A DNA stretch of 64,000 bases from Sphagnum magellanicum (lineage: Eukaryota > Streptophyta > Sphagnopsida > Sphagnales > Sphagnaceae). Shown in pieces: positions 16,131 to 55,799 of this stretch. The stretch spans positions 6,014,001-6,078,000 of the forward strand of contig CM038914.1 of NCBI GenBank assembly GCA_021904315.1, in the 5' to 3' direction. The position numbers and the translations under genes are program-made. Numbering within the stretch: position 1 is the stretch's first letter; every line of letters starts with the position of its first letter. The notes beneath the pieces were generated by a model. The model was not told the origin of the DNA. It made no database searches and saw nothing but the letters and a program-made list of their open reading frames with translations.

Positions 16131-18430
16131 GAACGGGTGGTAGTGGAGAGAACTTAGCTCCAATTGCCATCATTAGGAGTTCAAGCTCTCTTATGAACCT
16201 TTAAGGTTTGAGCGAAGGTTCGCGTGCCTCAAGGGAGGGTCGGAATAAGAAGGTCAAGGGGGTCCAATCTGGACCTCTCCTTTTATTTTTCATTTTTTTC
16301 CAATTTCCCCAACTTGGGTTGTAGGTTTAACATTAATATGAACTTGCCAACATTTTTATTTTATTTATTTGTTTGTTCATCCATTTGAAATATTTCATCC
16401 AAATTTTGGATGAAAAAAATCATCCATCTAACTAGGGGTAGTTAATGGGTGAACAAGGGTTAATGATCATGTGGGTAGGCTAACAAGCAAACAACCCACC
16501 TATGAACATACACTAGACAGTTTGACCTTTAAAATCGGATAGAAAATTCATTTTTATTTTCATTTTGGAATTTTCATTTTGAATTTATTTAGAAATTCAT
16601 ATGTTTTGCATATGGAGTCAAATTAACAAAGTGTTTACATTATTAAGTTCTTGGAGAAGAGGATTATATGCATGAAAAGCTCCAAAAGTGCAGAAGTTTT
16701 GGAGACAAAAAGTTTTGGAGGCTAGAGGTTGATTTGGCAATTGTGGAATTATTTGCAATTCAATTTTGGGAATTCAATTCTCACCCATATGAAGGTGGAA
16801 TCAAAAGTTTTTTGTGACAATTAATTCCTAGTGAGGAGCATTTGTAGCCTAGGAGTTTTCAATTCAATTAGAGATAGGCACTTTTGGAAGCTTATTTTAA
16901 GACATTGGGCGATATGTGACCAACATTTTCATACCAAATATTTGGTGGTTCAGCATTATGCTAGTGAGTCATATTTTTTGCAACTTATAGGTGGTGGAAT
17001 GTTACACCATCAACAAATGCGAAGGATTTGAATTCATGTTATGATTGTTAGGTGGGAATCACAAAAGTGGAGGTTTATGTTGCATGAGTTGTGCATTTCC
17101 ATTCGTGTTTGTTAGGTTGTGCTTGTTGCCTATTAACATGTTAGTTGGGTTGTCATACGCTTTTAGGGGGTAAGGGGATTACCAAGGTGTGTGCCATTCA
17201 GCTACAACATGGGGGTGAACACATGTTTTCAAGTTGATTTTTTGGTAGTTTGTGCTTACTATTAAGTGTGAAATTTCAAATGAAAGGTTATGTGCCTTCA
17301 CATGTGTGCCATTATTGCTACAATGAGGTTGGGGGTTGTGATTGGTGTGGTTAATGGTCGAGCATGGGACAAAGTTCCCACCCAATCCTAATCATTGAAC
17401 ATGTCCTATTTGATTCATGGTTTCTTCAAACATGTTGATTAGGTTTTAGTCAAGGTTTAGGGTGTATTGGAAATCACAGTTGCAAACAAATTTATATTTG
17501 ATCACCAAGTTGTCCCATTGCTTCTTGTTGTGGTGAGATTGGGTTGATGACTAGTAAACCACCTTTTTGTGTTCACATTGTGCCTTAGTTTGTTGGCCCT
17601 ATGATTTTTTTTATGGGTGCAGGTGCCCTAACCATATAGGTGCAATAAACTTGGGTTCAATTATGAAGTTTATGTTTTGGGGGTCTGGTTAAGCCACAAC
17701 AAGTTCAACATCCTTGTAGATTTAGTTTGAGCCATCGCAAATGTATCATCCTTTTGTGATTGGATTTTTGGGGGGATACCCAAGTTAGGGTTAGTGTTCA
17801 TCATGGAGGTGACATAAGATTTAAAGGACAAGGACACTGTTACTAGTGGTTTCACCAGGCAAGGGGTGCGGTTCAGACCACCCACACCACTTTCATCATC
17901 ATCTAAGGGAGATTCTTCAGATTTGAAAATAATTTTTTCTCCAAGGGTTGTCACCCCACCACTGTTGTGGGATATGGAGGAGATGCATGGAGCCACCAAA
18001 AGGTTTTGTCGATATTCAAGGATGGTTAGCACCATTGAGTTGGATGATTTCATCTAGAAGTTTGACAATTGGTGTGATATGCAACAAAAATGCATAATCC
18101 TTAGCTATTCACACCCTTCATGGCATGGAAGGGTTTGTTTCAACATTTGGAGGGGCCACCTATGGATGATTATCATCAATTCAAACATGCCCATGAGATT
18201 TAGATTGAGGAGTGGTGATTATATTAGTCTCCCAATTATGTTTTTATCATTACGAAAATTGTGGCCCCAGGTGGTGTAACGACAATTCCTAACATTAGTT
18301 TGGCAAAATGGAAACAGTAGTGCCATTGGTAGTGGAGGCATTGGAAGTGGTGGAATTATCGGGAGTGGTGGTGTAAGGGCATCCATGAGGTCCATTACCT
18401 ATATTTAACCTAGTTGTGGAATTCTTCCAT

Positions 18431-19270
18431 TGGCGCACCCCCAAGTTCCTTAATGGACTCAAACTTGAGTCCAAATTGAAAACAACGGAAAAGTAAGGAG
18501 TCGGGGCACGCTCCCTAGCTCGCAACATTTTGAGGGGTAGAGGGGTGTGCTGGAGTTCCGGGATGGGAGTAGGAAGACTGACAAGCATCAACTATTCACA
18601 CGGACCTGCACAAAACTAACACAAGGTGATTAGTGCATAATTGGAGCACTTTTGGTGCTAGGATGAGCCACGGGCAAACTCGGATTCACAAGACTCACCA
18701 CGACTCGGACTTGGGGGAAGCCACCACCTTCCCCCTTATAGTATACTCTGTGCCTCTCCATGAGGCCCACATCCAAATGGTTTTTTGTCCCAGGATTCCC
18801 AAGTGGGAGTCCCGAAATTGCCAAAATTAAGACTCTTGCGACTTTGGGGCCCCATAACTTTATGTGCAGACCTTCGATTGAGATGAGGTTTGAAACAAAG
18901 TTATAGCCCTCGTTAAGACCTTTCCAACAATATGTTGCATGCCACCTTCATGCAAGGAAATCGGGTTGATTCCTGACTTTTAATGGTCGGGAATCAAACT
19001 GCCAATTTGACTCCCGACCCTTCTTTTGGCCATAACTTATGTTTTAGATGTCCAAATGGGTCATGCGAGCCCATTTTAGACATTTAGGTTTCAATAACTT
19101 TTCAATGGTATGAATAACTTCTCAATCCATTAGGTTTTGACCCTTACAATCACTCTCTGAACATTCAGGAGTCCACTTGGACTCCAACACTCAACATGGG
19201 AGTTCACTTGGGAGTGTGAAGGTTCTTTCCTTCACACTCTGGTCACGAGCCCAAGGCTAGGGTTGCAACA
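18431..19270 (+). mobile_element. Solo LTR B
   Basis: An 840-bp solo LTR of the same family as LTR A, starting TGGCGCACCC and ending GCAACA, flanked by a perfect 5-bp duplication TCCAT (18426-18430 and 19271-19275). It sits inside gag of gypsy copy 1. Most CpG positions kept in LTR A are TG or CA here, so it is probably older than A. Confidence 0.9.
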
Positions 19271-19388
19271 TCCATGAAATCTAATGGATTTACCAAGGGG
19301 TTAGAACTAAGAAACTCCAGAGTTTGCAAAATTTCTAACATAAGCCCCATGAAAGTTTGTGAAAAGCCTTTGCACGGATGCATAGATT

Positions 19389-22300
19389 CACTAGAAGAAA
19401 AACATGTATTTTCGACTGCTCTTTGTGACTAAATTTTAGTCGCAAGAGACATTTTGCAACTAAAATCCTTTTAGTCGCCTAAGACAAGTCGCATGTGAAA
19501 ACTAGTCGCAAATGACAAAGAGTATAAAGTCAACAAATACATTTCATCCTTTGACTCCATTGTATACGTATTATCACATGCGACTAATATGCGACTATTT
19601 TGGTCACAATTCAAGGCAAATCATGTGCTGCCACGTGTTTTAATATATGATTATTTATATTATTATTATTATTATTTTGAAATAATCTAAGACGTTCAAT
19701 TCAAAGACTTGGATGATCTTATATTATGGCACGTGGACCAATGTAAATATGCCACGTGGCATTAAAAAAAATTAATAAAAATATTAATATTAGGTTGGTA
19801 GGTACATAAATAGGTGCCTACAATCCTTCCCTACCTACCTACCTACCTACCTAGGTAAAATAGTAAATAAGTAGGTTCTACCTTCCTAGGCTAAATACCT
19901 ACTCATATAAGTAGGTACTTAAGTAGGTAGGTACATAGGCTAACCTAGATGGGTAGGTCAAACTAGGTGTCTACCTAGCTAGATAGATAAGTAGGTTGGG
20001 GAGGTATGTACTTTAGAATTGTGCATTATTTGTTTTTTTGTTTTGGGTTGAGCCTTTTGATTAGCTCATCCCATGTGCACAAACTTCTTAATGTGAAATT
20101 GCATAGGCACACCCCTTTGTTTATATAGTGTTCAAAATAGGAATGGAGAACAAACAATATGGGATAAGTTTTGAAGTTGCAACTTCCTTACAAACTAAGT
20201 TGTAATTCCAAAACTTTCTTCATCCCTTATTTTCTAGGGTTTTTAGATTTTTAAACAATTCAAGTACTAGATAATTAAATAATCATTTAATTCATAATGA
20301 TGAAATTTACATATATTTAAATTATAAACTATACACTACAAATATTCATTATTCATTATCAATTACTTAAATAAGTAATACCTTCTTCATATTTGACAAA
20401 CTAACTATCTAGTTATTCACAAGTTATTAATACATAACTCATAAATAATAAAATATTTAAAAATATTTAATTACTTTTTAGAATCTGATTGAGCTATATA
20501 TAATATAATTAATATGAAATTAATTTAATGGTTATGATTTAAAATTAAATATTTTAAATATTTATTTTAAAATTATATATAATGAATTAAAAATTGTTAT
20601 TAGAAAGTAAATTCTTACACAAAATTTTGAAGAATTATTATTCAACTAATTACATTATTTATTGTATAATAACATTTATTTTTGTAAAAATTATTAGAGG
20701 TCAAATAATTTTTTTCTCTTGGTAATCATTAACTATAAATACAATAACTTGTTAAACATAACATTAATTTTCATAATTACTATAAAATTACTATAAAATA
20801 TTTATCATAGATTATTAATCAGAAACTTTTTAAAGATAATATTATTGTATAATAATTCGTGAAATTAAAATCAGTAAAATAATTATTCTAACTACACTAT
20901 AATTTTTTCCAAATTTTTAATTCAGGTTTGAAGTTATAAATTAAAGAGTGTGAATAATTATGTTCAATTAGAAAATAATTATGCACATACTAATTAATTT
21001 TTATATGAAGTAAATTACAATGATTTTAAAGTAATGTCACATTAATTTAATTAATTAATTTCTTCTAACATAATAATATAAATTATATAATATACAAATC
21101 TATGTCATAAAAATAATTATTTACTGTCACTTAGATTTAATAAACATAATCATTTATAATTATTTATAAAAGTGATTTATTATGGATAGCACTAGTAGAA
21201 AAAACCCTTGAAATTCAATCAATAATTTTTTGAATTAAAATATAAATTTAAGATTCCAAAATAGTAATTCAGAATTCAAATATTAGTTTTTAGAAGTTTT
21301 TAGAAGTTAAATAAGAAATTTCAGAATTGAAATGTTAATTTTCAGATTCAAATAATAATATTCAAAATTAAAATTTGCATTTGAAGACTTAATTAGTAAT
21401 TTTCTAAATTGAAATATTAATTCTAAGAATCCAAAATAATAATTTGGAATTCCAATTTCAACTTTCAAGTCAAATAATTTCTTAAAATTTAAATTTTAAA
21501 CTTCAAAATTCAAATATCAAATTTCAAGTTGAAATAAAAATATTTAAAATCAAGTTGCCAATTTTTAGAGTCAATAAAGTTTTTAAAATTGAAATAATAA
21601 TTTAGAATTCAAATATCAGTTTTTAGATCAAATAAGTTTTTTGAATTTAAATAGCAATTTTCAGAATTGAAATGTTAATTTTCATATTCAAATAACAATA
21701 TTCAAAATTGAACTGTCCATTTTTAGAGTCAATTACTAATTTTCAGACTTGAAGTATTAATTTTGAAAATCTAAAATAATAATTTGGATCTAAATTTCAG
21801 GTTCGAATTAAATGATTATTTAAAATATAAAATTCATATTCACATAAAAATATTCAAAATTAAATGGAATATTCAAATTAATCGATTTTTATGATCAATT
21901 ATAATTTTCTGAATTGAAATACTAATTTTTGGATTCGAAAATATTAATTTAGAATTCAAAATCAATTTTTAGATCAAATCAGTCTTTTTGAATTGAAAAT
22001 ATCATATTCAATCAAAATTTTCAAATTCAAATAATGTTTTAAACAATTGAAATAACAATTTTCAGATTCAAATACCAAGTTTCAAATTTTAATAAAATTT
22101 TTAAAAAGTTAAAATAACATTTTTTTCATAATTGAAATATCAATATTCATATTTGAATAAAAAAATTCAAAGTTCAAATATTAATTTTGCGATTCATTAT
22201 ATGAACAATATACATATGTATGCATATATATATAATTTTAGTACATACATTAAAATATACCCGTATGTCATTGTAGAATACCTTTAGGATGCAATTAATT

Positions 22301-22536: not shown

Positions 22537-23639
22537 ATTGATCATGGTGACACAAGGTGTCACAAAAGCCGAAGTAGTCCGGTTTTGGTACAGGGTCGTA
22601 GACAAGGAGCTTAAGCGTCGAATGCGGGATGCCATTTTGTTACAACCTACCCAACCGACTTTAGCTAGTGTGTTTTAATTATCGAAAAGGATTAAGATGA
22701 ACATGGTGGAGGAACAAGTGGTCACCCTTGGGTTCAATAAGGAAAACCCAAGGAATTATTTAACACCATCATGCCAACAATCATGAAGTCAGCCCATTAA
22801 AGTTGCACCACCCAAGGCCAAGAAGGCTAAACCAGATTCAAATGATGGTTCCACATCCTATTCAATAGAACAAGGTGGAAAGGACAAATGTTGGAGGTGT
22901 GGTGGGCTTCACAAGAAAAATGACTATCCCAATCCACCACAAGCCACAATTTCCAACCCTAATCCTAGCCAGCCATGTTCCCATTGTCATGCATATGGGC
23001 ATGATGTTGATCATTGTTTCACATGATTTCACCCAAAATTACGGTAAGGCCAATCATAGAACACTAATGCTAGTAAAGGCCAAGGTTTTGGGAAGGGTTA
23101 AAAGGGGAAAGGTGTGACCAACAAAGGGCTAGCCACCAAGCCAGCTCAAGGCCAACCCAACACCATGGAGGTTAGGTTTGCTCGATTGGAGGCTTTAGTC
23201 ACAAGCATGGCGACCTAAGTGAAATATACTACATCTGGGCCAGGGAAGGTTAAGGATAGGGAAGATGACCAATCATATGGGTTGGATGCAGATCAAGGAT
23301 TCTTTTGTGGAACTGGTTTTTCGAGATTAATGGCACCAAATGAAATGATGCCACATATGTCAAAAGATCATGAGTCATGGGCAATAGATGATGGAAACCA
23401 TGTTATGGTTCCAAATTTTAATGAGATGATTTCCATAATTACACGTGAAAAAAACTAGTATGTGGGTGCTAGAACCACGAGGTGCTGATGAAAGATTAAA
23501 TCCTCAGCATGGTGAGGCTCAACGTCAAGTGTAGCTCCCATAATCATTTGTGTTAACAAACATTATTCCCAATCCCATTAGGGCATCAATTTTGGGTGGA
23601 ATGTTAAGGAAAGTGCCAGTTCTATTTTTAGGTCCAAGG

Positions 23640-24480
23640 CGCCCATAGGTTTGATGAAGATGGTCAAAGCAGTGTGTCAAGCACCATTGTTCCCTATTGA
23701 GACATTGGCCCTTTCAGGTATTCAACTAGTAGTAATGTTTCGTTTGGCAGCCACATTATGTGAAAATGGTGGAACACTTGAGGTGATGGTTAGGTTGGAG
23801 GACACTTTTGTGCTTCCTATAATTCCCCATCCAATTTTTGAGGCCAACGGCAGGAAGGTGTCCAAGGTTCAACTTGAATCTTGGCATATGGTTATGCCCA
23901 AACTTCATGACTTTCCAAAACAGCCAGCCATTGATTGAGCCAATGTTATCCCTAGGGTTGTGGTTGTGCACAATGAAGGAGTGGTTCAATTAAGGGGGGC
24001 ATTAGCACGTTGGTACCAACCTTTTAAAGTGTTGTTAGATTATGGTACTTGACCATTGATGTTGGGCAAAGTTGTTGTTGATGGTCTTGGATTAACGAAT
24101 GTTGATCTTGACCCATGCCCATATCACATTTTGACATCCATGGGTGGGTTAGAAAAAACACGAAGGTTAACCAAGCAAGAAATTGTGATCCAGGTTAATC
24201 CCAACAAGCTAGTAGACTACACTATTATGTGAGTTGGAGTAATGGTCACACATGTTATGTCCAATGTTGTGTTGGTTAGAGGTGTGGTGTTATACCCCCT
24301 AGGGGTTACCATTGATTTTTGGGAGGAAATTGCATACCACCATCCAAGCTGGCAAACAGGAGCTAGCCATAAGGCTTTATTGACAATGAGATTCATGCAA
24401 GGGCAATTAGGAAAATCTAAAAAATCAACTATGTTGGCTAGATTTTCAAGCCTTCCACATGGATTTGAGTTGTTGGAGGG
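23640..24480 (+). pseudogene. Gypsy copy 1 gag-pol linker and aspartic protease
   Basis: Broken plus-strand frames bridge gag and the methyltransferase. At about 24027-24065 the translation reads Val-Leu-Leu-Asp-Tyr-Gly-Thr, a stop, then Pro-Leu-Met-Leu-Gly: the retroviral-type protease core with the usual Asp-Ser-Gly changed to Asp-Tyr-Gly. The following segment to 24480 aligns with copy 2 around 52440-52640. The protease would have cut the polyprotein; this copy cannot. Confidence 0.6.
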
Positions 24481-25281
24481 TAATGTCCATGACTAGGATG
24501 CAACTCCAAATGTTGAATTGGTGGTGTTAAGGCCATAGGGGATGTTAATCATTCCAATTTCTCCATTGGATCCTAGGCCCCCATGGAGCACATTGACTAA
24601 ACTCTAGGCATCAACCAATCATTATATTCATTAATCTTGATGCACTCTGCCATCACCAAGCCCATAATCACTTGTGAACCTTAGTAATGGGTCTCCAGGT
24701 TTAAGCCCATTAGATATTAGGGTTATTCAGTGGGATATTCCCAAGGATGGGATATGCCTATTTGAGCTAGTTGGAGGCATTAGTTCTGGATTAGCTGTAA
24801 TTCTACAATCAGGCATCCTAGTCCGAAGATACCATTATGTGGAGAAAGATCCACAAGCCAGACAAGCCTCCATGTGGCATGTTATGATGTTGCAACAAAG
24901 GTATCCCCATTTGTTACCAACATCGGCCATACATGGTTATCAATATTCATTACCAAACAACATCACCTTGTTGGGGGTGTTAGGTTTGGTAAGGATTGGG
25001 CTAATTGATTTGGTCATTTCTAGATGGCCATGCCAAGGTCTTTCACAAGTAGGTATGGGCCAAGGACTTTCCGATCCTAGGTCAAGTTTATTTTAGGAAT
25101 TGATTTGTGTTGTGCAACATTTACATTAATCACATATGCACCCATGTGCATATTTGTTGGAGTATGCCCCACCATTGGGGGATTCTAGGCCAATTGTTTT
25201 GGCTAGATGGTAATAGATTAAGGCTTGGATCGACAAGTCAATGTAGGTGGATGTTACTTTAGTTGGTTCACGAACTCATCA

Positions 25282-27821
25282 CACTATTAGAAATTTTGGG
25301 TTTTGCAATTATCGTTTGCAACTAAAATTCAATTGCATGCAACACATGCAACTGCAAATTTGTGTAGTTGCATAAGACAAGTTGCACATGAAATTCAGTT
25401 GCATGCGACATTATGTATGCAACATGTATATACAGTGCTAATATACATGTTCATCCATACATATTAATCCAAATGTAGTTGCACCTTGTTGTAACTCTCC
25501 TTGCAACTACAATGTAACTAATAAAAATATGACACGTGTTTAAAAATTGGACAACTAACTTGTGGACACGTGTCATTATTTTATTTTTTTGTGTTTTCAA
25601 AATTAAAAATTCATTGGATTAATTTCAATCATTAAAGTTTCTACCATTGAGATGATGACACGTTGCACACCATGGAACGTTCATTAACCATTTGACATGT
25701 GTCATTTTTAAACACACATTATATGATGACACGTGGCAATTAAGGCCTACCTTTTTTTAATTTTAAAATATTAATTAATTAAATTTAAATTGTCCAATTT
25801 TTGGCCAATAAAATGTTGACACATGTGCCTAGGTAGGTAGGTAATTATTAACCTTATTACATAAGTAGGTTTATTTAAATATGTAAGTAGGTTGAACATA
25901 GTTAGGTTTAGGCTATATAGGTAAAATTAAAATGATCCAATTTTGTTTTTAAGATTAACCATTTCATAAAGGTCAAACTTTATTTATTTACTCATTCCCA
26001 ATGGCATTTGGTGTTTGGTTACAACAAAGCTATTGCTCCTAGTTATATATTGAGCCAAATAGAATTGGAAGCCAAAGGATATGGGATAAAAAATTCCATT
26101 GCAAACTTCATGAACCAATTTAGTTGCACATTAGATCCAACTAATGTATTAGAGTATAGTAGCTAGGGGAGGGTTTTTCTGCTTTTGGTGTCCAAAAAAA
26201 ACTTGAAGCCCTCCTCTTGGCGCATCTAATACATTAAAAATTGTGAAAAAAGATTAAAAATGAAAAAGTTATGGCCCCCCAAAGTAAAGGGGGTAAAAAA
26301 CTCAGAATAAAAACCATTTAGCACTACAAAGGCCGATTCTTAAACACCCAGAAAGTCCCTTTTATGTTGTTTTTTTGCTATTAAAGTTCTAACATAATTT
26401 GTAGAACTTCAGATGGCGCTCCTATAACATTTTAAATCGTTTAAAATGAATAAGAAATAAGAAAGTTATGAGGTTTGAAAGTAGGAGGAGTCCAAAGAAA
26501 AAAAAAAAAAAAAACGTTATAACTTGGAAAACTTATTCTTCATGTTAATTTTTCATTATTCCTTCTTTTTTTGCACTTCAAAGATGATTGTAGAATATTT
26601 TTAATAATAATGATTACTCAATGAAAATATGATTTTAACATTATTATATAGTTCAAACTAGTAATTAACTTAAGATGTTTGTGTACTTGGAGGTTAATTT
26701 GTGTAGCCTATTTACATTAATATTTTAACATAAATAATATAATTTAAATATATAATACCTATTGATATTATATATATATGATTATCATTATAATTGTAAT
26801 AAAAATTAATTGATAATTATGAATATTTATAATAAATTTGAATATTATCATATTAATTGATTCTAAATAATGTTTTTGTTTAATCAAATTTACATTTTTT
26901 GAAAAAGATTCCGAATAAAATAAATTAAAAATATATATTTAAACCATGGTTTAGTTTAGTGTAATTTAATTTAGTATATTTTAATTTAGACATAATTAAT
27001 TTAGCCATTGTTAGATTTAATTTAATTTAGTTTAGCCATAAATATTTTAGCCTAACTTAATTTAACCATAATTAGTTTGGCTTAATTTAATTTAGCTATA
27101 TTTATTTCATGTTAATTTAATTTAGCTTAATTTATTTTAGCCATAAATAATTTAGTCTAACTTAATTTAACCATAATTAGTTTGGCTTAACTTAATTTAG
27201 CCATAATTAGTTTGGCCTAACTTAATTTAGCCATAATTATTTTGGCCTAATTTAATTTAGCGATATGTATTTTAACCATAAATAATGTAGTTTAATTTAC
27301 TTTAACCATAAATAATTTATCCATAATTATTTGGCCTAACTTAATTTAGCCATAGTTAATTTAACATAATTTATTTTAGCCATAATTAATTTAGCCTAAT
27401 AAATTTAGTCATGGTTAGTTTTAACCTAATTTAATTTAATCATGGTTAGTTTAACTTTTTAGTTTATTTAGCCTAGGTTTGTTTAGCCATGGTTATTTTA
27501 ACTTAGGTTAGTTTAGGTTAGCATATGTTAGCATGTGGTTAACCTTAATACTAAAGGCACATAATATTATTATACATAGCCTATGTAGATATATTAAGTA
27601 TAATAATTTAAATATGTATAAGTTTAGGCCATCATTTTTATGACACATGTCAATGTTGTACACATTTAGTTGCACATTAGTTGCACACACAACCGTATGG
27701 TTGAAAATTTATACAATACCAAATTTATAGTTGTAAACATGACTGAGATAGTTGCAAATGACAACCAGTTGCATGCTAGTTGCATAGTGACTGGTTGCAA
27801 ACGACAAGATTTTTAGTAGTG
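25282..27821. mobile_element. CACTA-type non-autonomous DNA transposon 2
   Basis: A 2540-bp element with termini CACTATTAGAAATTTTG and, complemented, CACTACTAAAAATCTTG, flanked by a perfect 3-bp duplication TCA (25279-25281 and 27822-27824). The subterminal word is TTGCAAC/GTTGCA, which matches the GTCGCA word of element 1 with C changed to T; blocks such as AAGACAAGTYGCA align directly between the two. No transposase seen. It holds an internal degenerate array (26960-27500), and sits precisely inside methyltransferase motif VIII of gypsy copy 1. Confidence 0.88.
26960..27500. repeat. Tandem array of TTAATTTAGCCATAATTAG units
   Basis: About 540 bases of a degenerate unit of roughly 30-35 bp containing TAATTTAGCCATAATTAGT and TTGGCCTAACTTAA. 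It lies in the centre of CACTA element 2 and has no coding potential. Confidence 0.75.
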
Positions 27822-28679
27822 TCAATTTCGATGGATGTGGACTAACCTAGCATTACTAGAGGTGATCCAACAAGCATATGAATTCATTCCTAGACCACCC
27901 ACATGCTTGGTGGATGACATATTGAATCTAGGATGCCATTCATGTGCATTTCATGATGATGACTAACCACCTTTGGTTGTAGTCAATAGGGTTGGCCTTC
28001 CACAAACAACCTTACTAACATTTTTGAGTTTTCCACAATCCCATGCATTTAGGAATGGGGGCCTAGGGATGATTTGGGACTCCCATTCATTTAATATGGA
28101 AGAACCCAATACAAATGAGAGGGAATGGGCCATGGGTTTTCGCACCAACACCACAATTGTGCAAGGCATTTCCAAAGGAGCTTGTAGGCAAATTTTGGGG
28201 CAAGTTATGGATTTCAACTACCTCACATGGATTTTCAATTTGGTCTTGGCAAAACAATTATGTTTTGGCCAATCACACCCACCCACTCCACCCATTCTTT
28301 CACTTGTTGCACCTTTTGTCGAGTCAAGTATGGCAGTGTAAGGGGGGGGGGTGATGTTATAATAGGACAAGTACAACCTTGGCAATTATGGGATTAGGGA
28401 TGCCAAGGGACATTTATGGGTGTGGAACAGGAAATTCGTGATGTGGGGGTGCCAAGACATGATGACACCTCTTCACATTTTGCATAACAATCATAGGTCA
28501 TGCCTTCAACTTTAAGTGCTAAGGATGTTCCATCATCCCAACCCAAGGTACATGTGACTGTAGAAACATGGGACCTAGGAATTAACTTAATAATTACAGG
28601 TGGTGATTTGCATGAAACACAATAGATAATACGAGATTTCATTAGATGTTTTGCCTTCAGTATAAAAGAATTGGGTCAA

Positions 28680-29360
28680 TTGAAGGGATAAGAGGTCCGA
28701 ATCATATTGGAGGATGATATTTTGATTTTCAAGTGACCTTACAAGCTTAGTGAGGTGGAAAGAACTTTGGTTTAGGTTCGAATAGCAGAGTTGATGTTAA
28801 TTTGGTGAATTATTTAGGGGTGAATATGCTTTAGCAACAATGATGCTAGCCAAGAAGGACATTTTTAGTAATTGGATTGAACACCGCATGTGTGGGGATT
28901 ATTGTCCAATGAATAAACGAACCCGTTTAAACAAATATGCCATGCCCCTATCGAAGGAAATCTTTGATGCCCTTGGACATGCCAAGGTTTTCAATACCTT
29001 GGACTTAAGGTCTGGTTACCATTAATTACCATTGAGGGAGGGTGATAAGGTCAAAATAACATTTTGGGGAATTGACCCCCATGGGAAGGATTGTTTATAC
29101 CGATGGAAAGTTTTGCCATTTGGTTTGAAAAATGCCCTTGTAGAATTTCAAAAGGTCATGGATTGAATGTTAGCGATCTTGGTTTTTCCAAATGCTACAT
29201 TGATGACATCATTGTTTTTAGCCTGACCCCAAGAAATCATATGCACCATTTGCAAGAGGTGTTTAGAAGACCTAAGGAACATAACCTTAAGTTTCATCCA
29301 GGCAAGCGCTGATGTTTTCATACTCATGTAAAGTACTTGGGTCACATGATTTATCTAAGT
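28680..29360 (+). pseudogene. Reverse transcriptase of gypsy copy 1
   Basis: Ty3/gypsy reverse transcriptase. The fingers region reads MCGDYCPMNK, followed by Leu-Asp-Leu-Arg-Ser-Gly-Tyr-His, then Leu-Pro-Phe-Gly-Leu-Lys-Asn-Ala, and a catalytic Tyr-Ile-Asp-Asp box at 29196-29207 that is intact. Stops break the frame, including a TGA at an Arg-type (CGN) position just before the catalytic box where copy 2 has TGG. It would synthesise the cDNA of the element. Confidence 0.9.
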
Positions 29361-29559
29361 GGATTGGGGGTTTAGAAGGCCAAGGTTGAGGCTATTTCAC
29401 AAGTTCCCTAACCAATAGATGCTAGTTATTTACAAGGTTTTTTGGGCTAATGTAATTACTACTAGAGGTTTATGAAAAGTTTCAGTAGCATAGCCAAACC
29501 TTTCACTCAACTAATGCAGATTGATTAGGAATTCATTTGGGATGAGCCACAAGAACAAG

Positions 29560-30120
29560 CTTTTTAGGAGTTGAAAGTCAGGGTTTCATCAACCCCCATT
29601 TTGAGGTGACCCATCTGAGGACAACCATTCCAATTACACGCAGATTGGAGTACTTTAGGGTGAGGAGCTATGTTTACCCAACTTGATGATGATGGACAAT
29701 AGTTTGTGGTGGCATATGCTAGTCAGTCCAACAACAAAATAAAGGCCAAGTACAATTCATATAAGGGGGAGTGCCTTGTAGTTGTTTGGGTTATTTCATC
29801 ATTCTGATGCTATTTTTATGGTAGTCCATTCACTTTGATTATCGATCATCAGCCTCTAAAATTACTTATGGAATCAGAATGATTCATAGGAAAGTTGGCC
29901 AAGTGGGCAATTATCTTACAAGAATATCATTTTGATATAATTCATAAGCTTGGTAAGGTTAATCAAGATGTCAATGGGTTGAGTTGGAACCCAAGTTCCA
30001 ACGAAGAGGATACCATTGGGGTTCATTGGCATGGTGATGTGGATTTAGAAGCAATACCAAGATGGCATGCCTTTGCATACCTTTGTACCTTATTGGGGTG
30101 TTATGGGGATGTACCTTAGA
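29560..30120 (+). pseudogene. RNase H region of gypsy copy 1
   Basis: Follows reverse transcriptase directly. Recognisable blocks are Leu-His-Ala-Asp-Trp-Ser, Asp-Asp-Asp-Gly-Gln, a Val-Ala-Tyr-Ala-Ser block, and a later Thr-Leu-Ile-Ile-Asp-His-Gln-Pro-Leu near 29840, all typical of gypsy RNase H. The open segment at 29895-30119 continues with the usual Ala-Lys-Trp-Ala-Ile-Ile-Leu-Gln-Glu block. Internal stops make it dead. Confidence 0.8.
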
Positions 30121-30229
30121 CTAATATGGATGATGGAGATCCCCATGATGTGGACATTGAGTAAGAGGGCAATGGTGCCTTAGATATTTATGATGATGCA
30201 CTTGTCATAACATATTTGTAAGCAGGAAA

Positions 30230-31110
30230 AGTTCCAATTGGATTAACACCCAAGGAAAGGGACCATGTTGTGCATAGAACCAAGCGGTTCAAATGGGAAG
30301 GTAATTCCTTCCTACAAATATGGGCAAATGGATAAGTGAAGGTTGCACTTCGCCTAGAGCAACATGAAAACCTTGTGAGGCATGTTCATGAAAAGTTGGG
30401 CCATTTTGGGGTCCAATAGACATACAATTTGCTCCAAACACAGTATTAGTGGTGAGGGATGCAATTGCAAGTTCAACAATTTATTTCTAGGTGTATGGTG
30501 TGTGACCAAATTTGGGCATTTTTCAACGCACCTACACGTCACCTATAACCCTTACCAATTATGGGGCTTGGGTATAGATGGAGTTTGGATTTTGTCAGCC
30601 CATTGAGTTTGACACCTCAACATAATCAATATGTTTGGTTATCATTGAGCATTTCTCCAAGTGGTTGGAGTTGGTTCCATTGTTGGATTGTAGTCGTGAA
30701 GGAGCAGCATATGCATTTTTGGACAAGGTACTTAGCAGGTTTGGGGCTCGAACCAAAATTCTCACTAACCAAATAATAGAATTTCATGGGGAATTTCAAA
30801 AGTTATGTGAGAAAGCATTGATTAATCATCGCATGACTTCACGAGACCATCCTAAAGAAAACGGGTTAGTTGAGTGGATGGTGCAGATTGTGAGGTGGGG
30901 TTACGAAAGTATGGTCTTCAAAGATTTCTGTATTCAAGATTGGGACTTACAACTACCATGGCTAGCTATGGGGTATAGGTTTAGTCGACAAGCTTCTCTT
31001 TCATATTTTTCACCATACTTCTTATTGTTTGATTATGAGCCCGAGTTACCAGTTTCAATTCGACGAAATGCGATGGCAATAATCAACATGGATGATCCTA
31101 ATGTGTGGAT
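30230..31110 (+). pseudogene. Integrase of gypsy copy 1
   Basis: The HHCC zinc-binding region is visible as Arg-His-Val-His-Glu-Lys-Leu-Gly-His-Phe (about 30376-30405) and Cys-Met-Val-Cys-Asp (about 30490). The core starts with GYRWSLDFVSP, catalytic Asp near 30588-30590. The second acidic block reads Thr-Asn-Gln instead of Thr-Asp-Gln, and the last is in Lys-Glu-Asn-Gly-Leu-Val-Glu. The loss of the second Asp plus frameshifts inactivate it. Confidence 0.82.
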
Positions 31111-31483
31111 TTAGGCATGTGAGTAGTGAGCCACCTTGTTTTGATGTGTTATGCCCATGGCTATGGAAAATTTGGCAATTGCCCAACACTAGGATACATT
31201 GCGTTATGCCACTATACATGGAGGTGGTTATCAACCTTAGATTCAGAGGTTTGAATGAGGATATTATGTTTACTTACAACAAATAGCATTGATCATTTTG
31301 GATGTGATTGTAGGATGTGTTATTTTACATGTGCAAAAGGTTTTACCTTTTGGAGTGTTGTTGTTGAAAGGCCGAGATGGTCAAACATGGAAGGACCATG
31401 TGCACAATTGTGCACCACGCCATCTTCCCAATGTGGATGGCCAAATGGACCCATCCTTAATCGTGGTTTTAGTTAGCCTACAA

Positions 31484-31627
31484 TGTATGTTGTATGGACA
31501 AGCTTTAGGAGCCGTCATTACATTGATTTGTGATAAATGTTTTTGAGGTTGGCATATGGGATGTCTCATGCCACCAATGGAAGAAGTGCCAATTGGCAAA
31601 CGGTTTTGCCCTCGATGCACCCAATAG
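31484..31627 (+). pseudogene. PHD-type zinc finger at the end of gypsy copy 1 pol
   Basis: In a single frame ending at TAG 31625-31627 the ligand pattern is C (31484), Y replacing C (31493), then x11, C-x2-C (31529, 31538), x4, H (31553), x2, C (31562), x14, C-x2-C (31607, 31616). This is the PHD-finger Cys4-His-Cys3 spacing. The Trp before the His and the Val-Pro-x-Gly block before the last Cys pair are also typical. Seven of eight ligands remain; TGT to TAT explains the lost one. A TGA lies between the second Cys pair and the His. PHD fingers read histone H3 tails, so a targeting role is inferred. The region lies after integrase, where chromoviruses carry a chromodomain; it is missing from copy 2. 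Confidence 0.8.
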
Positions 31628-47460: not shown

Positions 47461-49390
47461 CTAGTAGCATGTGCGGCTGTAGTGTGCAAGTAGCGCGTGA
47501 TGGCACAACACAGTAGCATGTTCACGCGTGCTATGCTCACACGTGCATGCAAATTGCCGAGCTCCTGTGACCATCACCGCATGGCTTCGGTTCGGTTGAG
47601 GCATGGGCTAGGCCTACTGGTTCGGTGGGGCGTCGACGGCCCACTAAGCTTGGGTGAGGCCCAGGCAGATAAGGCCAAGGCGGTCCAATCCGAATTCGCC
47701 CTCGGCCATTTTTGCTGTTTATTTTTGTATTGAAGTTTTGAACCTAAGGTTTGAGGGGCTACTTGGCAGCTAGGGGTAGGTTTGGGTAGGGGGGGCATGT
47801 TCGGGTTTAATATGAACCTGTTATTCATTTTTGTTTTTCGAACCTAATAATCAGGTTTAGCACCAACCCAAACTTAACACATGTCAAAAAAATTATTTAA
47901 AAATAAAAATAAAATCTTATTTTTATTTATTTATTTTATTTTTAAAAAATTAATTCATTTTTTTAGTTTTCATCCAAGTGGACGGATTTCATCCATAATT
48001 TGGATGTAACAATTTTCATCCAAGGTTTTCATTTTAAAAAAAAATAGTTAAATTTTTTTTTTGCATCCAACATTTGGATGAAAAGTTTTCATCCATTTGT
48101 GATTTTCAATGGGCCATATCTTCCACATATGGGTTCAGATTTCAATGATTTTCATGTCATCATATTCATCTTGGCAAGCTCTACACAATAGCAGGCCTAC
48201 AACCACTTTTGGAGATTGTGGTTTTGGGAGTCTAAAGATTAATTGTTTTTTATTTTTGAGATTTATTTCACATAAAATCCCAAAAATTGATATTTGTTGC
48301 ATATGATGCCTATTTCAGGTGTTGTTTTCACCATTGGTTTTACGGTGAAGGAGGTTATCATTATAAAAGGCTTGAATTAGGTTGGCAGAGGGCAATTTCT
48401 TAACCCTTTTTTTGGTGGTGTGGCGTGAGGGGCGCAAGGAGGCATGAGGTGCGGAGGAGGGCACAAAACATAAGAGCAATAGATGGGTGAGTTACTTGTA
48501 AGTACTCCTAATACCGATAGGTGGTGGAATGCCGCACCATCAAGCCACGTCATCAACTTTTGAATTTCTACATAACTATTGTCGTAAGTCTCTCAGTGGA
48601 GTTTACAAGGGTGGAGGTGTGTTTATTTTAAAAGGTTCTTCCCCTTTGTGTTGTGGGTTTTTGCATTTTTTTCTTGTGCTTGTGTTTGGGATTGTCAATT
48701 TTTTATCAAGGGTTTATCAGGGGTTAAAGAAATTTGTCAAGTTGTGTGCCTTTGGGTTACATCATAGGGCCAACACAAGTTCATGTGATGATTTTTTGTG
48801 AATTTGCATATTGTTCAATAAAAAACTTTGGGTAGAAGGTTACGAGCCTTCCCACGTGTGTTAGTTGTAGCACATAGTGAGCCCAAAGGTTATATATGGT
48901 GTGGTTAATGGCTAGGTATGGGACAAGGCTACGACCCAGCTTTAATTATTGAATAGGTCCTGCTTGACCTTTGATTTTCCTAGACATAGATATTAGGGTT
49001 TAGTGGTGAGTAGGTTGTACTTGGTGCTTGTCTTTTTTGTTGGGTGAGATCAGGTTGATGACTAATAGACTCCTTGTGGTAGTGAAATCGAGGTAATGAC
49101 TGGTGAAATTGCATTTGTTGTTTCTACGGTTGTGAAGGCTCCAAATTCGTACTTGGCCTTGATTAATGTTTTTGTGGATGCAAGTGCTTTAACCATACAG
49201 GTGTAGCAACCTTGGATACCATTTGGTTTGGGGGATTTTAGGGTTAGAGAAAGTTGCAATAGGTCAGCATCCATGTAAGATTAATTGAACAAATATAGGT
49301 GTAACAATCCTGGTCACAATGGAGTTATAGGATTCAAGGTTACAGGTTTAGGGTTTTTAGGGAGACCCATATTAGGGTTAGGATTTCATC

Positions 49391-50760
49391 ATGGACATGT
49401 GTTAGGATTTGGATTCCAAAGGTAGGCTTGCTGAAGGGTTTATTAGGTGGGGGGTGTGGTTCCAAGCACCCACCCCACCTACATTATCACTTGAGATTTT
49501 GAGGTAGAATTACCACCAATAGTGTCTGTACCACTTATGTGGGACATGGGAGACATGTATGGTACCTTTAAAAGGCCCCGATGATTTTCAAAGGTGGTTG
49601 GTAGCATCGAACTAAATGATTTCATTCAGGAGTTTTATACTTAGTGTGATATGCAATAGTTACGGAATTCACAACAATTTACACCTTTCTTAACATGGAA
49701 GGGTTTATTTTAGCATCTAAAAGGACTGCCCATGGATGACTATCATGAATTTTGTGATGCCCATGAGGTTGACATTGAAGAATGGCATTGGTATTGGTCA
49801 TCAAATTACTTTTCCATCACCAAAGGTTAGTTGGTTGCATTGACACCTACTCCATCGACCATTATCACAAGGGTTAGTGTGGGTCCTTCTACGCTTAGGG
49901 GCGGTGGCAACAGTCTAATTGTCAATGCATGAGTTCTTCCCACATTTAACCTTGTCATCGAGTTTTTTGAAGAGCTTTGCACCAATTACCAAGGTGTGAA
50001 GACTAAGAAACTATGTACATTTTAGGAATTTCAGTGCCAACCCCATGAGAGTTAGCAAGAGGCATACATGCATATGTGGAGGTTGATCAATGTGATTAAA
50101 GGGGTCACAAAGGCCCAAGTTATTTAATTTTGGTATGGGATCCTAGAAAAGGATATGAAGCAATGAATGTGAGATGTAGTTCTCACCTAGCCTACCTAGC
50201 TCATATTGGCATTGGTTTTCTAAGTATCTAAGTGCATTGAGATCAACATGGTGGAGGAGGAGGTTGTTACCTTAGGGTTTAGTAGGGAAACCTTCAAACC
50301 TTTTTGTACCTTGTCAATATAGTAGTCATGTGGTCATACATCAAAGATTGTACCACGAAAAGGCAAGGGACCCAAACAAGAACCTGGTGGGGGTTCCTCA
50401 TTTTACATTATTAAACAGGGGTGAGAGGATAAGTGTTGGAGGTGTGGTGGTGCATTGGAAGAAGGATTGTTTTAATCCTCCCTAAACGACCACCTTGAAC
50501 CTTAATCCCAGCCAACCTTGTTCCCATTGCAAAGCATATGGCCATGATGTAGACTATTGCTTCACATTTCATCTAAAACTATGACAAGGTCAATCCTAGA
50601 TGGGAAATGTAAGGGAGTCTTTGGTTTTGGCAAAAGTTAGAAGGTGAAAGGTGCAATCAATAAAGGGTTGGCCACCAAGTTAGCTCCAAACCAACCCAAT
50701 GCCATGGAGGCATGGTTTGCACATTTGGAGGTGTTAGTGATGAATATGGCATCCAACATG
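49391..50760 (+). pseudogene. gag of gypsy copy 2
   Basis: Starts at ATG 49391, aligned with the copy 1 start at 17803, and like it has a stop as codon 5. The central retrotrans_gag-like segment (about 49970-50250) contains Tyr-Gln-Gly-Val-Lys-Thr-Lys-Lys, Pro-His-Glu-Ser and Gly-Val-Thr-Lys-Ala-Gln-Val, matching copy 1 across its two insertion sites and so confirming those junctions. The CCHC region at about 50430-50580 begins Asp-Lys-Cys-Trp-Arg-Cys-Gly-Gly and then shifts frame. Many stops. Confidence 0.78.
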
Positions 50761-51325: not shown

Positions 51326-52275
51326 TATCGTGACCTTAGCCTTGGGTTCGCGACTAAGGCAAGGGCTTGCAAAGGTGCGGGCCAAGAGTGAAGCCTAGGA
51401 ATCACATTTCATGCTTCCGGGAGTGTAGTAGAGTGTGAGGGAATGAACCCACACACTCCTAAGTGGGCTCCCACTTTGGGAATTAGAGTCCTAATGGATT
51501 TCCAAATTTTTAGAAAACGACTTCAAGGGTCAAAACTCATTAGATTGAGAATTTCCTCATACCATTCAAAAGCTTCTAAGACATAAATGTCTAAAATGGC
51601 CTCCCATGACCCATTTGGGTACTTAAAACACAAGTTTTGGCCAAGAAAAGGGTCGGGAGTCAAAAAACCAATTTGACTCCTGACCACTAAAAGTTAAGAG
51701 TCGCCCTTATTTACTTATATGCAGGCAGGCCCTAAAGCATTAGGCAAAGCAGTAGGTGGTATCCCACATACTGTTGGAAAACTCTCAATAAGGGCTACAA
51801 CGATTCTTGAAACTTTAGCTCAATCGGAGGTCTTCACAAAAAGTTATGGGCCTCCAAAGTCGTAGGAGGCCCAATTTAAGGAATTTCAGGATTTTCAACT
51901 TGGGAGTCCTGGGACAAAATGACATTTGGGTGTAGGCCCTATGGTTAGGCACAAAAAATACTATAAGGGGGAAGATGTTGGCTTCCCCCAAGTCCAGCCC
52001 ATGGTGAGTCTTGTGAGTCTGTGTATGCTCGTGGTTTGTCTATGCACCAAAAGTGCTCCAATTACACACTAACTAGTTTGGTGTTTGGTTTGTGTAGGTC
52101 TATGTGAATAATTGACCCGCTTGTCATTCGTCCTAGTCCCCATTTCGGAGCTCTAGCACGCCCTTTTACCTACGAAATGTTGCGAGTTAGGGAGTGTGCC
52201 CCAACTCTTTCTCCTTTTGTTGTTTTCACCTTTGGACTTATAGTTGAATCTATCAAGGAGTTTGGGGGTGCGTCA
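51326..52275 (-). mobile_element. Solo LTR D, inverted
   Basis: A 950-bp solo LTR of the A/B/C family on the minus strand: it ends at 51326 and starts, TGACGCACCCCC, at 52275. Flanks are CCTAT (51321-51325) and CTTGC (52276-52280), so no target duplication is visible, unlike its three relatives. It lies between gag and methyltransferase of gypsy copy 2 and probably removed or rearranged the protease. Confidence 0.82.
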
Positions 52276-52439: not shown

Positions 52440-53925
52440 TGTAGTGGTGGTGCAGAATCAGGAAGGTGTTTTTTTAGGTCATCTTGGTCAATAATAAGGA
52501 TGGTAGATAGGAGATAGTCATAAGGCTTTTTTGCTATTTATTTTCATTAGGGGGCATGTAGGAAATCCAATAATTCGATGATGTTAGTAGGATTTTTAGG
52601 GCTTCCCCATGGTATTGATTTGTTAGAGGGCAATGTCCATGCTATGGATAGCTCCCTGATTCATTAGCTAAAGATGCCATGTGCCCAGGTTGGGCCATTC
52701 ATTTAGGGCTCATCATGTGATCTCCCACCATTATGGGGAACATTGTCAGAGTTTTAGGTGTTAGCCAAACATTATATTCATCAAGCTTGGCACATTTTGC
52801 TGTCACCAAGCCCACATGTACTTATAGATCTAGGCCATGGATCGTTTGGTTTACAACCTTTGGATTCCGGTGGCATATTCTCGAAGATGGGATTTGCTTA
52901 GTAGAGCTTTTTGGAGGCATTAGTTCTAGCCTTGTAGTGGTCCTTCAATTTGGCATTAGGGTTTGCCGATACTATTATGTGGAGAAGGATCTTCAAGCCT
53001 GGTAAGCCTCCATGCACCGTATTATGATGTTACGACAACAACATCTTGAATTGTTGCTTACATCGACGATCTAGGGTTACTAACGCGCCTTACTGAGAAA
53101 AATCACATTGCTAGGGGCATAGGATTTGGATAGGATTGGACTAGTGGACTTGGTCATATTAGGATGGTCGTGTCAAGGTTTATCATAGGTTGGCATAGCT
53201 TAGGGAATTTTAGACCCCAAATCAAGGTTATTTTGGGAGTTAATTTGGGTGCTACAATATTTGCAAACCTCTTAGTTGCACTCATGTGCATATGTGTTGG
53301 AGAATGTCCCACCTTTGTGGGATTCTTGGCCAGTTGTATTGGTAGCATGGCAACAAATTAAGGCTTGGATTGGGGACTTAGTTCAAGTGGATGCTATAGT
53401 AGTCGGTTCACATGGCCACCACTTTTGGTGGCTATGGACTAACCTAGCTCCAGTAGATGTGCTTTAACGCGCATATTGGTTCATTTTGAGGTCATTCACA
53501 TGCCTGGTAAATGACATTTTGGATCTAGGACAACCTTTTTTTGCCGTTCAACATGATGATCGACCACCTTTGGCTATGTTCAATAGGGTTGGCCTACCTT
53601 GGGGCAACATTACCTACTCTTTTGAGTTTTCCATGTTCTCATGCATTTCGAGATGGTAGTCTAGGCATGATTTGGGACATGAACTCATCAAGGATGATAG
53701 AACCTAATGCTAATGAACGAGAGTGAGTTATGGGATTTCACATTGGCATCACAACAGTGCGAGGGATTTCTGAAGGTGCTTGTCAACGAATATTGGGACA
53801 TGTTATGGACCTTACTTGTTTCACATGGATCTTTAGCCTTTGTTGGGCTTAACAAGTTCAATTTGCATAATCTTTCCTACCCACCCACCCTGCCTTTACT
53901 TTTGTTGCACCTACATTTGGGTTAG
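52440..53925 (+). pseudogene. C5-cytosine DNA methyltransferase domain in gypsy copy 2
   Basis: The second copy of the domain, without a transposon inside. Motif I reads CLVELFGGISSS at 52895-52930, then Tyr-Tyr-Val-Glu-Lys-Asp. Motif IV is LGWSCQGLS with the catalytic Cys codon at 53171-53173; the preceding Pro is Ser (TCG, one C-to-T step from CCG). Motif VI is intact, YVLENVPPL, with Glu-Asn-Val at 53300-53308. Motif VIII is near 53404-53450 (Phe-Trp-Trp-Leu-Trp-Thr-Asn). Motifs IX/X lie at about 53713-53835 (Asn-Glu-Arg-Glu, Met-Gly-Phe, Ile-Leu-Gly-His-Val-Met-Asp). The I-X span is about 941 bp, nearly equal to copy 1 without its insertion, so the domain was in the ancestral element. Several stops and frameshifts. 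Confidence 0.85.
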
Positions 53926-54229
53926 CTATGTTGCTACGAGGGGACATCTTTGGCATTTATGGGATCATGGATTTATGGGTAATGGGAAGGAGGTTTTGAT
54001 GTGGGGGTGTTAAGGCATTTTGGTGTTACACCACCTTCTGCATAATAATCATAGGTTTTGCCTTCAACCTTAAGTGCTAGGGATGTTCCATCATCTCAGC
54101 CCAAGGTAGAAGAGATCGTAGAGTCATGGGAGGAAAAAATTGGTCCCATGGTTACATGAGATAAGGTATAAGAAGTATGACGACTATTGCAGGATCATGT
54201 TGGTTTTTTTGCCTTTAGTTTGAAGGAAT

Positions 54230-54990: not shown

Positions 54991-55179
54991 CGGTTACGAG
55001 TGTTTTTAGGCTTGTGTAATTATTATCGGAGACTTGTTAAAGGATTTAACATCATTGTTAAACTTTTAATTAGGTTGATGCAAATTGACCAAAAGTATGT
55101 TTGGGTTGAGGAGCAGGAGAGAAGGGATTTCAGGAGTTGAAAGGCTCAACTTTCCTTAACCCCCATCTTGAGGCAACCC

Positions 55180-55600: not shown

Positions 55601-55799
55601 GGAGAGGTGGATTTGGAGGTTGTGCTAGGATAACATGCTTTTGCATACCTGTGTATTTTGTTGGGGTGTTTTAAGGATGTATGCTAGGGCAACACGGGTG
55701 GTGGGAATTCCCAAAATGATGACAATGAGCTAGAAGGCGATAATACCCTGTACATCCATTTAAATTTACATGTTATGGCATATTTACAATCAAATGAAG

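Follow-up and report, generated by a model that had tools for sequence, protein, structure and literature searches.

The window, meaning the whole stretch of 64,000 nucleotides from Sphagnum magellanicum analysed here, holds two dead copies of one Ty3/gypsy family. The domain order is gag, protease (PR), DNMT3-type C5-cytosine methyltransferase (MTase), reverse transcriptase (RT), RNase H and integrase. A sequence-only reading of this DNA had proposed a Ty3/gypsy element with a C5 MTase between protease and RT, and this is confirmed by the motifs, a PF00145 match, the second copy and related proteins. The parts of the first element are listed below; P0030 is a Marchantia protein and L017 a contig carrying a related retroelement.

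16987..17901, +, leader shared with element 2 (blastn, five blocks matching 48517-49489 at 67-89% identity)
17974..18275, +, gag N-terminus (56-65% identity to P0030 residues 1-100)
18431..19270, +, solo LTR within gag, target-site duplication (TSD) TCCAT at 18426-18430 / 19271-19275 (junction sequence; blastn to other LTR copies)
19291..19389, +, gag middle piece, YQGVRT... (tblastn, P0030 149-181, E 3e-5)
22538..23050, +, gag C-terminus with CCHC knuckles (tblastn, P0030; CWRCGG.../CSHCHAYGH... read directly)
23924..24316, +, aspartic protease, LLDYGT*PLMLGK (alignment to P0030 LLDSGAQPLMLGK)
24668..25281, +, N-half of the DNMT3-type MTase, motifs I-VIII (PF00145, E 4.7e-5; 27 related proteins)
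25282..27821, +, CACTA DNA transposon inside MTase motif VIII, TSD TCA at 25279-25281 / 27822-27824 (terminal inverted repeats and TSD seen in the sequence itself)
27825..28257, +, C-half of the MTase, end of motif VIII to X (tblastn, P0030 1057-1201, 46%, E 6e-35)
28807..29349, +, RT (PF00078, E 1.3e-9, first part; end from the alignment with L017 ORF2)
29502..30014, +, RNase H (PF17917, E 2.5e-25; PF17919, E 9e-25)
30174..30512, +, integrase zinc-binding region, H2C2 (PF17921, E 2.3e-13)
30590..31111, +, integrase core (PF00665, E 2.1e-4, below the cut-off; L017 ORF2)
31484..31624, +, PHD finger C-terminal to the integrase (PF00628, E 2.5e-5, 24.6 against 24 bits; aligned with the L017 PHD)

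The one-strand order read earlier, from gag (18.0-23.0 kb, broken) through PR (23.9-24.3 kb), MTase, RT and RNase H to integrase, is found by Pfam and tblastn in agreement, and the succession PR, RT, RNase H, integrase is that of Ty3/gypsy elements. By itself, the protease has no Pfam match, and Pfam returned nothing significant for the gag C-terminus. The region 30590-31624, PHD finger included, is 51% identical to L017 ORF2. The second copy lies at 48.5-59.5 kb, and its MTase is free of the CACTA interruption.

48517..49489, +, leader (blastn to element 1)
49546..50451, +, gag (tblastn, P0030, E 2e-59; a weak match, E 0.05, continues to 50581)
51333..52275, -, reverse LTR copy inserted in element 2 (76.5% to the 32.3 kb LTR)
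52871..53990, +, MTase, frame change near 53600 (tblastn, P0030 874-1116 and 1120-1245, E 2e-76)
54091..56969, +, RT, RNase H and integrase (tblastn, L017 ORF2, E 1e-131 and 1e-124)

The gag start at 17974-18275, this second copy and the PHD finger at 31484-31624 go beyond the sequence-only reading. No PHD match to L017 ORF2 was obtained in element 2 by tblastn, and no target duplication flanks the LTR copy at 51333..52275.

When the flanks were compared at high sensitivity, no LTR pair belonging to either element came up. Three LTR-like repeats (14.6, 18.4 and 32.3 kb) have, as judged by eye, the flanking pairs CCTAT/CCTAT, TCCAT/TCCAT and CTAAT/TTAAT, and because of these short duplications each is read as a solo LTR. 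The repeats at 18.4 and 32.3 kb, 78% identical, were considered as the LTR pair of element 1 and rejected, since gag begins 5' of the first and both have flanking duplications. Rfam gave no matches at gathering scores. Among three flanking ORFs, Pfam recognized a CUE domain only.

The methyltransferase and its class

The element 1 MTase is encoded at 24668-28257, between protease and RT. Its N-half, in frame 1, carries motif I (LFELVGGIS) and motif IV (WPCQGLS). The canonical motif order claimed earlier holds for motifs I, IV and IX/X, whereas motif VI is degenerate (LEYAPPLGD in place of ENV) and motif VIII is split by the CACTA element. The ends of that transposon read CACTATTAGAAATTTTGGGTTTTGCAA and, reverse-complemented, CACTACTAAAAATCTTGTCGTTTGCAA, with TCA flanking both. 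With X placed at the stops, the N-half scores narrowly above the PF00145 cut-off (E 4.7e-5, 23.4 bits against 22); its open part alone falls below it (17.3 bits). A Pfam search with the C-half gave no matches, and this half is 46% identical to P0030 over 145 residues (E 6e-35). Neither half alone finds anything significant in the PDB (best E 0.17 and 0.33), and the class of the enzyme is therefore set by its relatives.

The search for these relatives scored the best 8000 candidates by shared words, at lengths of 0.55-1.75 times the query, and may have passed over short enzymes and remote DNMT3s. It recovered 71 related proteins from Marchantia, Calypogeia, Sphagnum, Closterium and metagenomes. 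A separate comparison yielded 27 related proteins, from 89 candidates, at 57-99% identity. The liverwort, moss and algal members show a real, apparently old and little-noticed family. Its alignment keeps the canonical order, with PC in motif IV, EN in VI, AHRxR in VIII and ExER...LG in IX/X.

In profile and fold searches, DNMT3A and DNMT3B are the nearest among the matches listed, ahead of DNMT1, DNMT2, DRM and bacterial enzymes. The MTase match that had been sought is thus present (PF00145, E 4.7e-5; DNMT3A, E 1.4e-26). DRM belongs to the same superfamily and ranks second among the enzyme classes of the profile search (DRM2, 3e-12), but its motif order is permuted, whereas the family MTases and the window run from I to X in order; the earlier statement that the enzyme is not DRM-like agrees with both results. 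DRM and CMT are absent among the 50 matches listed by the fold search, which excludes neither. Searched against NCBIfam, each of the 12 aligned domains hits the broad dcm model, without reaching the one cut-off displayed, and one of them also hits another model at chance level.

Between elements 1 and 2, the MTase differs at 88/64/140 first, second and third codon positions (325 codons, p 1.7e-7) and the RT at 21/17/41 (121 codons, p 5e-4), in frames set by hand; these hand-set blocks, taken without a separate control, are the whole basis of the result. A third-position excess between two dead copies points to probable past constraint. In automatic block sums, the same test gives no clear excess (MT p 0.33, RT 0.58, RH 0.46, INT/PHD 0.055, gag/PR 0.016); these sums include wrong reading frames, as similar DNA aligns whatever the frame. 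Depletion of CG in the elements (0.19-0.38) does not exceed that of two further window stretches (0.12, 0.13), and the CACTA insertion (0.35) is as depleted in CHG as the elements are; neither signal argues for self-methylation.

Domain orders, PHD finger and known elements

MTase and RT share one chain in 30 of the 71 relatives, with the MTase first in 13 and the RT first in 17. These two alternative positions separate cleanly in an RT tree built from 22 of the 30 two-domain relatives (eight with a short RT were left out) and one window piece. Proteins without an RT were labelled by their neighbour, type A where PR precedes the MTase and type B where the MTase precedes the integrase; P0088 stayed unlabelled. 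The MTase tree does not recover type A as a single clade. Its DNMT3B outgroup joins through a branch of 3.5, and a warning of long branches was raised; where the family is rooted is therefore uncertain.

The contig L017 carries a gag-PR-MTase frame at 3-3491, its 5' end cut by the contig, which closes at TAG CAATCA. RT, RNase H, H2C2, integrase core (rve) and PHD follow in frame at 3492-6635. The sequence UAG_CAR_YYA is a published readthrough motif (in the accessible text of PMC3542737). This leaky-context stop was seen in the one contig; several relatives have an MTase-RT fusion without a stop, and in some of these gene models predicted introns could hide one. The TAA at 28339, after the element 1 MTase, was considered as a conserved leaky stop and rejected, as element 2, matched by eye, has no stop there.

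A PHD finger follows the integrase both in element 1 and in relatives. In the 122-residue piece following the element 1 integrase core, Pfam found PF00628 only and no chromodomain. Of the 21 relatives with an identified integrase, 18 have a PHD finger; the remaining three stop no more than a few residues from the integrase match. The best PDB matches of the PHD finger are CHD4, Lid, KDM5A, ATXR5 and KDM5B. We take these nearest solved relatives to be mostly readers of histone H3 unmethylated at lysine 4. Judged from its domains, element 1 would pair an epigenetic writer, the MTase, with a reader, the PHD finger.

The paper named in the sequence-only reading exists: de Mendoza et al. (2018, PMC5890265) describe, in the text accessible, KnitGypsy-Dnmt3 of Klebsormidium nitens, a gypsy element with Dnmt3 in its Pol ORF. 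By description, both have a Dnmt3-type, non-permuted MTase in a gypsy Pol ORF or polyprotein, but the accessible text of PMC5890265 has no PHD finger, and the repeats of the algal element are described there as DIRS-like. SymbioDIRS-Dnmt3 of Symbiodinium (same text) likewise has a Dnmt3 within a retroelement Pol in two coexisting domain orders, but it is a DIRS element with a tyrosine recombinase and without gag-PR-integrase-PHD. Chromoviruses are gypsy elements with a histone reader at the integrase C-terminus, which is a chromodomain, whereas the present family has a PHD finger and, in addition, an MTase. A 2019 survey of 8453 plant gypsy elements gives, in its accessible text, eight domain types, neither PHD nor methyltransferase among them (PMC6317226).

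Another 2019 paper states, in the part accessible, that no transposon-encoded methylases occur in land plants (PMC6338049). The Marchantia and Sphagnum elements contradict this statement for land plants; its tracheophyte half stands. As far as the literature could be searched, the claim that such an element would be a novelty for land plants largely holds, but unannotated liverwort and moss proteins of the family were already in GenBank. The PHD finger after the integrase, the split of two MTase positions in the RT tree and the third-position excess are new relative to the sequence-only reading.

Proposed role of the methyltransferase

The best explanation of the whole, which we hold to be rather probable, is a DNMT3-bearing gypsy family with a Gag-side MTase, self-methylation of its cDNA and PHD-guided integration, in which we infer the activity, the substrate and the PHD ligand. 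The MTase would be made together with the Gag-protease precursor. In L017 it stands directly 5' of a UAG in the readthrough context CARYYA, and an MTase upstream of such a leaky stop would be produced, and enter the particles, in larger amounts than RT and integrase. In the particle or the pre-integration complex, it may methylate the freshly made double-stranded cDNA at cytosines, most likely those of CG sites; each copy would then integrate with the mark of silent chromatin already in place. The PHD ligand, at a guess, would be H3 with unmethylated lysine 4, biasing integration away from active promoters. Such pre-marking and steering would lower the cost to the host and hide the element among heterochromatic repeats. 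According to the accessible text of PMC5890265, SymbioDIRS-Dnmt3 enzymes produced de novo CG methylation in yeast; the Klebsormidium gypsy enzyme produced no methylation in yeast, a result judged inconclusive there.

The MTase could instead act in trans on the host, perturbing or diluting its methylation, for example by misplaced CG methylation at silencing genes. DNMT3-type enzymes do work in trans on chromatin DNA, and de Mendoza and colleagues raise host-methylome effects for Symbiodinium, but the K. nitens methylome resembles those of land plants (both in the accessible text of PMC5890265) and a Gag-side enzyme, as suggested by L017, would be mostly in particles; we consider this unlikely. 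It is still less likely that the domain serves the particle as a structural or nucleic-acid-binding component whose catalysis is dispensable. Some relatives do lack motif residues (P0073 has Cys changed to Tyr, P0032 has no Cys), and 21 of 55 domains differ from the Marchantia residue at at least one of eight motif positions. Yet in these 55 complete domains (16 of the 71 relatives were dropped, their MTase being incomplete relative to P0030), the catalytic Cys is kept in 53, the ENV Glu in 55 and the first Arg of motif VIII in 54, at identities to P0030 as low as 31% among 12 aligned domains. An RNA substrate (genomic RNA or the tRNA primer) has a precedent in the DNMT2-class C5 methyltransferases, which by their PDB names act on tRNA; we give it a very small probability.

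Acquisition from a bacterium or virus, not from a eukaryotic DNMT3, is improbable: DNMT3 surpasses HhaI by 16 orders of magnitude in the profile search, genome contigs gave one close locus, the L017 retroelement, and four weak Streptomyces loci, and the 16 IMG/VR loci found with family motifs are 26-42% identical over parts. Viral contigs scanned with the window pieces gave no relatives. The broken domain of element 1 and the stop between its MTase and RT might suggest a host MTase gene or fragment landed by chance beside an unrelated retroelement, an idea that the sequence-only reading had named as its possible undoing. It is refuted by the copies, to the point of negligible probability: element 2, the MTase-before-RT (13/71) and RT-before-MTase (17/71) relatives and L017 tie the domain to the element. 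The MTase is no chance neighbour of the retroelement.

Beyond cDNA self-methylation in one family, a wider picture is possible but doubtful. A land-plant and algal gypsy lineage may have kept a DNMT3 writer and a PHD reader since early green-plant evolution, its particles loaded with MTase through a leaky stop and its copies born methylated and steered to unmarked chromatin; it would be the only DNMT3 source of Marchantia. The published Marchantia inventory, to our knowledge, lists MET, CMT and DRM and no DNMT3.

The family extends the known cargo by a histone reader and is a second case, beside SymbioDIRS, of the same cargo in two domain orders. DNMT counts in bryophyte genomes can include enzymes of such elements. 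Since transposons are targets of DNA methylation, it is a lasting paradox that one of their families has kept a de novo MTase in liverworts, moss and algae alike. The question can be put to the test in Marchantia polymorpha, which has copies with an intact MTase domain, transformation, methylomes and mutants.

Organization of the element and of its second copy

The coding order of the decayed Ty3/gypsy copy at about 17–32 kb (element 1) was determined by three-frame translation of window positions 22–32 kb. The plus strand encodes, in order, gag zinc knuckles, an aspartic protease (PR), the N-half of a DNMT3-type C5-cytosine methyltransferase (MTase) in the same frame as the protease, a 2.5-kb insertion, the MTase C-half, reverse transcriptase (RT), RNase H and integrase. 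Element 1 is a dead copy, because its coding frames contain stops and frame changes. A Pfam scan with X in place of stops gave the following plus-strand matches, including the MTase profile expected from the sequence-only reading.

Pfam matches in element 1
DNA_methylase, plus strand, E 4.7e-5
RVT_1, plus strand, E 1.3e-9
RT_RNaseH, plus strand, E 2.5e-25
Integrase_H2C2, plus strand, E 2.3e-13
PHD, immediately 3' of the integrase, plus strand, E 2.5e-5

The integrase core alone matches weakly (2.1e-4, under the cut-off). The gag and protease pieces give no significant Pfam match and are assigned by alignment to Marchantia proteins; neither MTase half, searched singly against PDB chains, gives a significant match. 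The insertion (25282–27821) interrupts MTase motif VIII between GSRTH and RW-WTNL, and its inverted ends and TCA duplication bear out the CACTA transposon recognized earlier. This transposon contains a 15/30-bp tandem array (TTTAATTTAGCATAA, 26950–27438). The gag region includes an AT-rich stretch (20160–22220), in which degenerate 20/41-bp repeats begin at 21.2 kb.

A second element (element 2, 48.5–59.5 kb) was revealed by tblastn with two Marchantia polymorpha proteins, P0030 and P0032.

Features of element 2
from 49546, gag
52871–53990, MTase, without the CACTA insertion
from 54223, RT

No PHD was seen in element 2, and the own LTRs of the two elements were not found within the window. The window holds one LTR family in four copies, 66–78% identical, three of which are bounded by perfect or near-perfect 5-bp duplications and look like solo LTRs.

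Copies of the LTR family
14633–15555, plus strand
18431–19270, plus strand
32265–33175, plus strand
51333–52275, minus strand

Elsewhere in the window, a long ORF of host-gene appearance (3722–4690, minus strand) encodes a CUE domain (PF02845, E 6.5e-6), with a 194-bp unit in tandem upstream (4729–5116). This CUE-domain ORF, of seed-plant type, points to a land plant with a large genome as the source of the window, as do the CHG depletion and the liverwort affinity of the nearest named relatives. A GC-rich ORF of 218 codons with serine runs and no Pfam match (39460–40113, plus strand) shows hardly any CG or CHG depletion (0.87, 1.21) and probably represents exon 1 of a host gene. A 29-bp tandem array (AAACCTTCAACATCCAAGAGTAAAAACAA) of about 18–21 copies lies at 36324–36928.

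A methyltransferase family in retroelements

The MTase is no chance neighbour of the retroelement. The alternative of an independent gene inserted by chance, raised with the sequence-only reading, is answered by the second window copy and by relatives that join MTase and RT in one protein. With the open N-half as query against 5.8 billion proteins, candidates being restricted to similar length, 27 of 89 matched at E < 1e-3 (57–99% identical). Seven were scanned against PF00145: two pass the cut-off (P0009, 3e-12; P0015, 1.9e-8), two match weakly and three are without match. In the relative P0023, the upstream linker is joined to the MTase start. The read-through gag-PR-MTase query matched six of 773 candidates. 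Each of the six is a hypothetical protein from Marchantia polymorpha, 1034–1333 residues long, and five of them pass the PF00145 cut-off. The gene model P0032 (Mp_6g11220) is a fusion of gag, PR, MTase and RT, in that order. Its MTase has no catalytic Cys (PCQ missing), which suggests loss of catalysis in individual family copies.

The P0030 MTase, with 8000 candidates scored, retrieved 73 proteins with an E value of 1 or less: 71 family members (P0028–P0098, query counted) and two fish DNMT3B (9e-4 and 3e-3). Named land-plant hosts among the 71 are the liverworts Marchantia polymorpha and Calypogeia fissa and the moss Sphagnum fallax; named algal hosts are Closterium (Zygnematophyceae) and, with partial matches, the chlorophyte Monoraphidium. 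For Marchantia, Sphagnum and Closterium the proteins come from gene models, whose predicted introns could conceal stops. Both MTase and RT occur in 30 of the 71 (MTase first in 13, RT first in 17); four have the MTase before an integrase without RT, and 37 have neither RT nor integrase.

The MTase occupies one of two places, the PR/RT gap (type A: window, Marchantia, Sphagnum, Closterium) or the RNase H/integrase gap (type B). The order RT-RNase H-MTase-integrase-PHD was confirmed by Pfam coordinates in four long proteins. A PHD was found in 18 of 21 relatives with an integrase; in the remaining three, the protein ends only a few residues past the integrase match. The MTase tree (58 rows) shows type B as a single clade (100/99) and type A not as one clade (2 changes); the window N-half groups with Marchantia, Calypogeia and two further relatives (11 rows, 100/99). 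In the RT tree (23 rows), the types lie on opposite sides of one branch (100/98). Long branches were flagged in the tree analysis. Together with the presence of PHD in both types, the trees fit either a single capture with one subsequent move or the capture of two related enzymes, and the rooting favours neither.

A gypsy element with Dnmt3 is reported from the charophyte K. nitens (PMC5890265; the words gymnosperm, PHD and moss are absent from its full text), and DNMT3 is mentioned for retrotransposons of streptophytes and dinoflagellates, worded LTR Copia and DIRS (PMC12344493). Transposon-encoded methylases are stated to be absent from land plants (PMC6338049), 8453 surveyed plant gypsy elements have eight domain types with neither MTase nor PHD (PMC6317226), the five Marchantia methyltransferases fall into the classes MET, CMT and DRM, DNMT3 not among them (PMC5784723), liverwort gypsy bursts are treated without mention of a methyltransferase (PMC9985172), and host DNMT3 genes are described in non-flowering plants, gymnosperms included (PMC6453930). 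Among the titles and abstracts searched, mostly of open-access journal papers, none describes this family in a liverwort, a moss or a vascular plant, or a PHD finger in it.

Signs of past constraint, and proposed expression and function

One relative, on contig L017, has a gypsy coding region that is nearly complete and includes both MTase and PHD. The contig is filed under a Synechococcales (cyanobacterial) MAG and is likely eukaryotic contamination. Its open gag-PR-MTase frame (3–3491, 5' end cut by the contig) terminates in TAG CAATCA, and the same frame continues with RT-RNase H-H2C2-rve-PHD (3492–6635). UAG_CAR_YYA is a readthrough motif of plant-virus type (PMC3542737), and CARYYA is discussed in a fungal retroelement (PMC3441728). 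If readthrough is used, Gag, protease and MTase would be made together, and RT-integrase would be a minority product only. Many type A proteins stop shortly after the MTase, as a leaky stop predicts, at the protein level.

Across 325 MTase codons, the two window copies differ at 88, 64 and 140 sites of codon positions 1, 2 and 3, a third-position excess with p 1.7e-7; across 121 RT codons the counts are 21, 17 and 41 (p 5e-4). This is a two-copy test of dead elements in hand-set frames and does not amount to a Ka/Ks estimate. When all alignable blocks were summed automatically, no clear excess appeared (MTase p 0.33), because such sums also include wrong reading frames of the same DNA. The hand-set comparison gives signs that the two lineages diverged under coding constraint before death, with the MTase about as constrained as the RT.

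Two other window stretches (0.12 and 0.13) are at least as strongly depleted of CG as the window elements (0.19–0.38), and the CACTA element (0.35) matches the window elements in CHG depletion (0.29–0.45); the depletion is therefore uninformative on self-methylation. Some retroelement Dnmt3s methylate CG in yeast (PMC5890265).

The analysis establishes for this family its architecture, the DNMT3 class of its enzyme, a conserved active site and signs of past constraint. The nearest PDB fingers to its PHD are those of CHD4, Lid, KDM5A, ATXR5 and KDM5B, which are mostly readers of unmethylated H3K4, and the PHD finger is thus a putative reader of this mark. The MTase may have the element cDNA as its substrate, and its DNMT3 relatives suggest that it would target CG.
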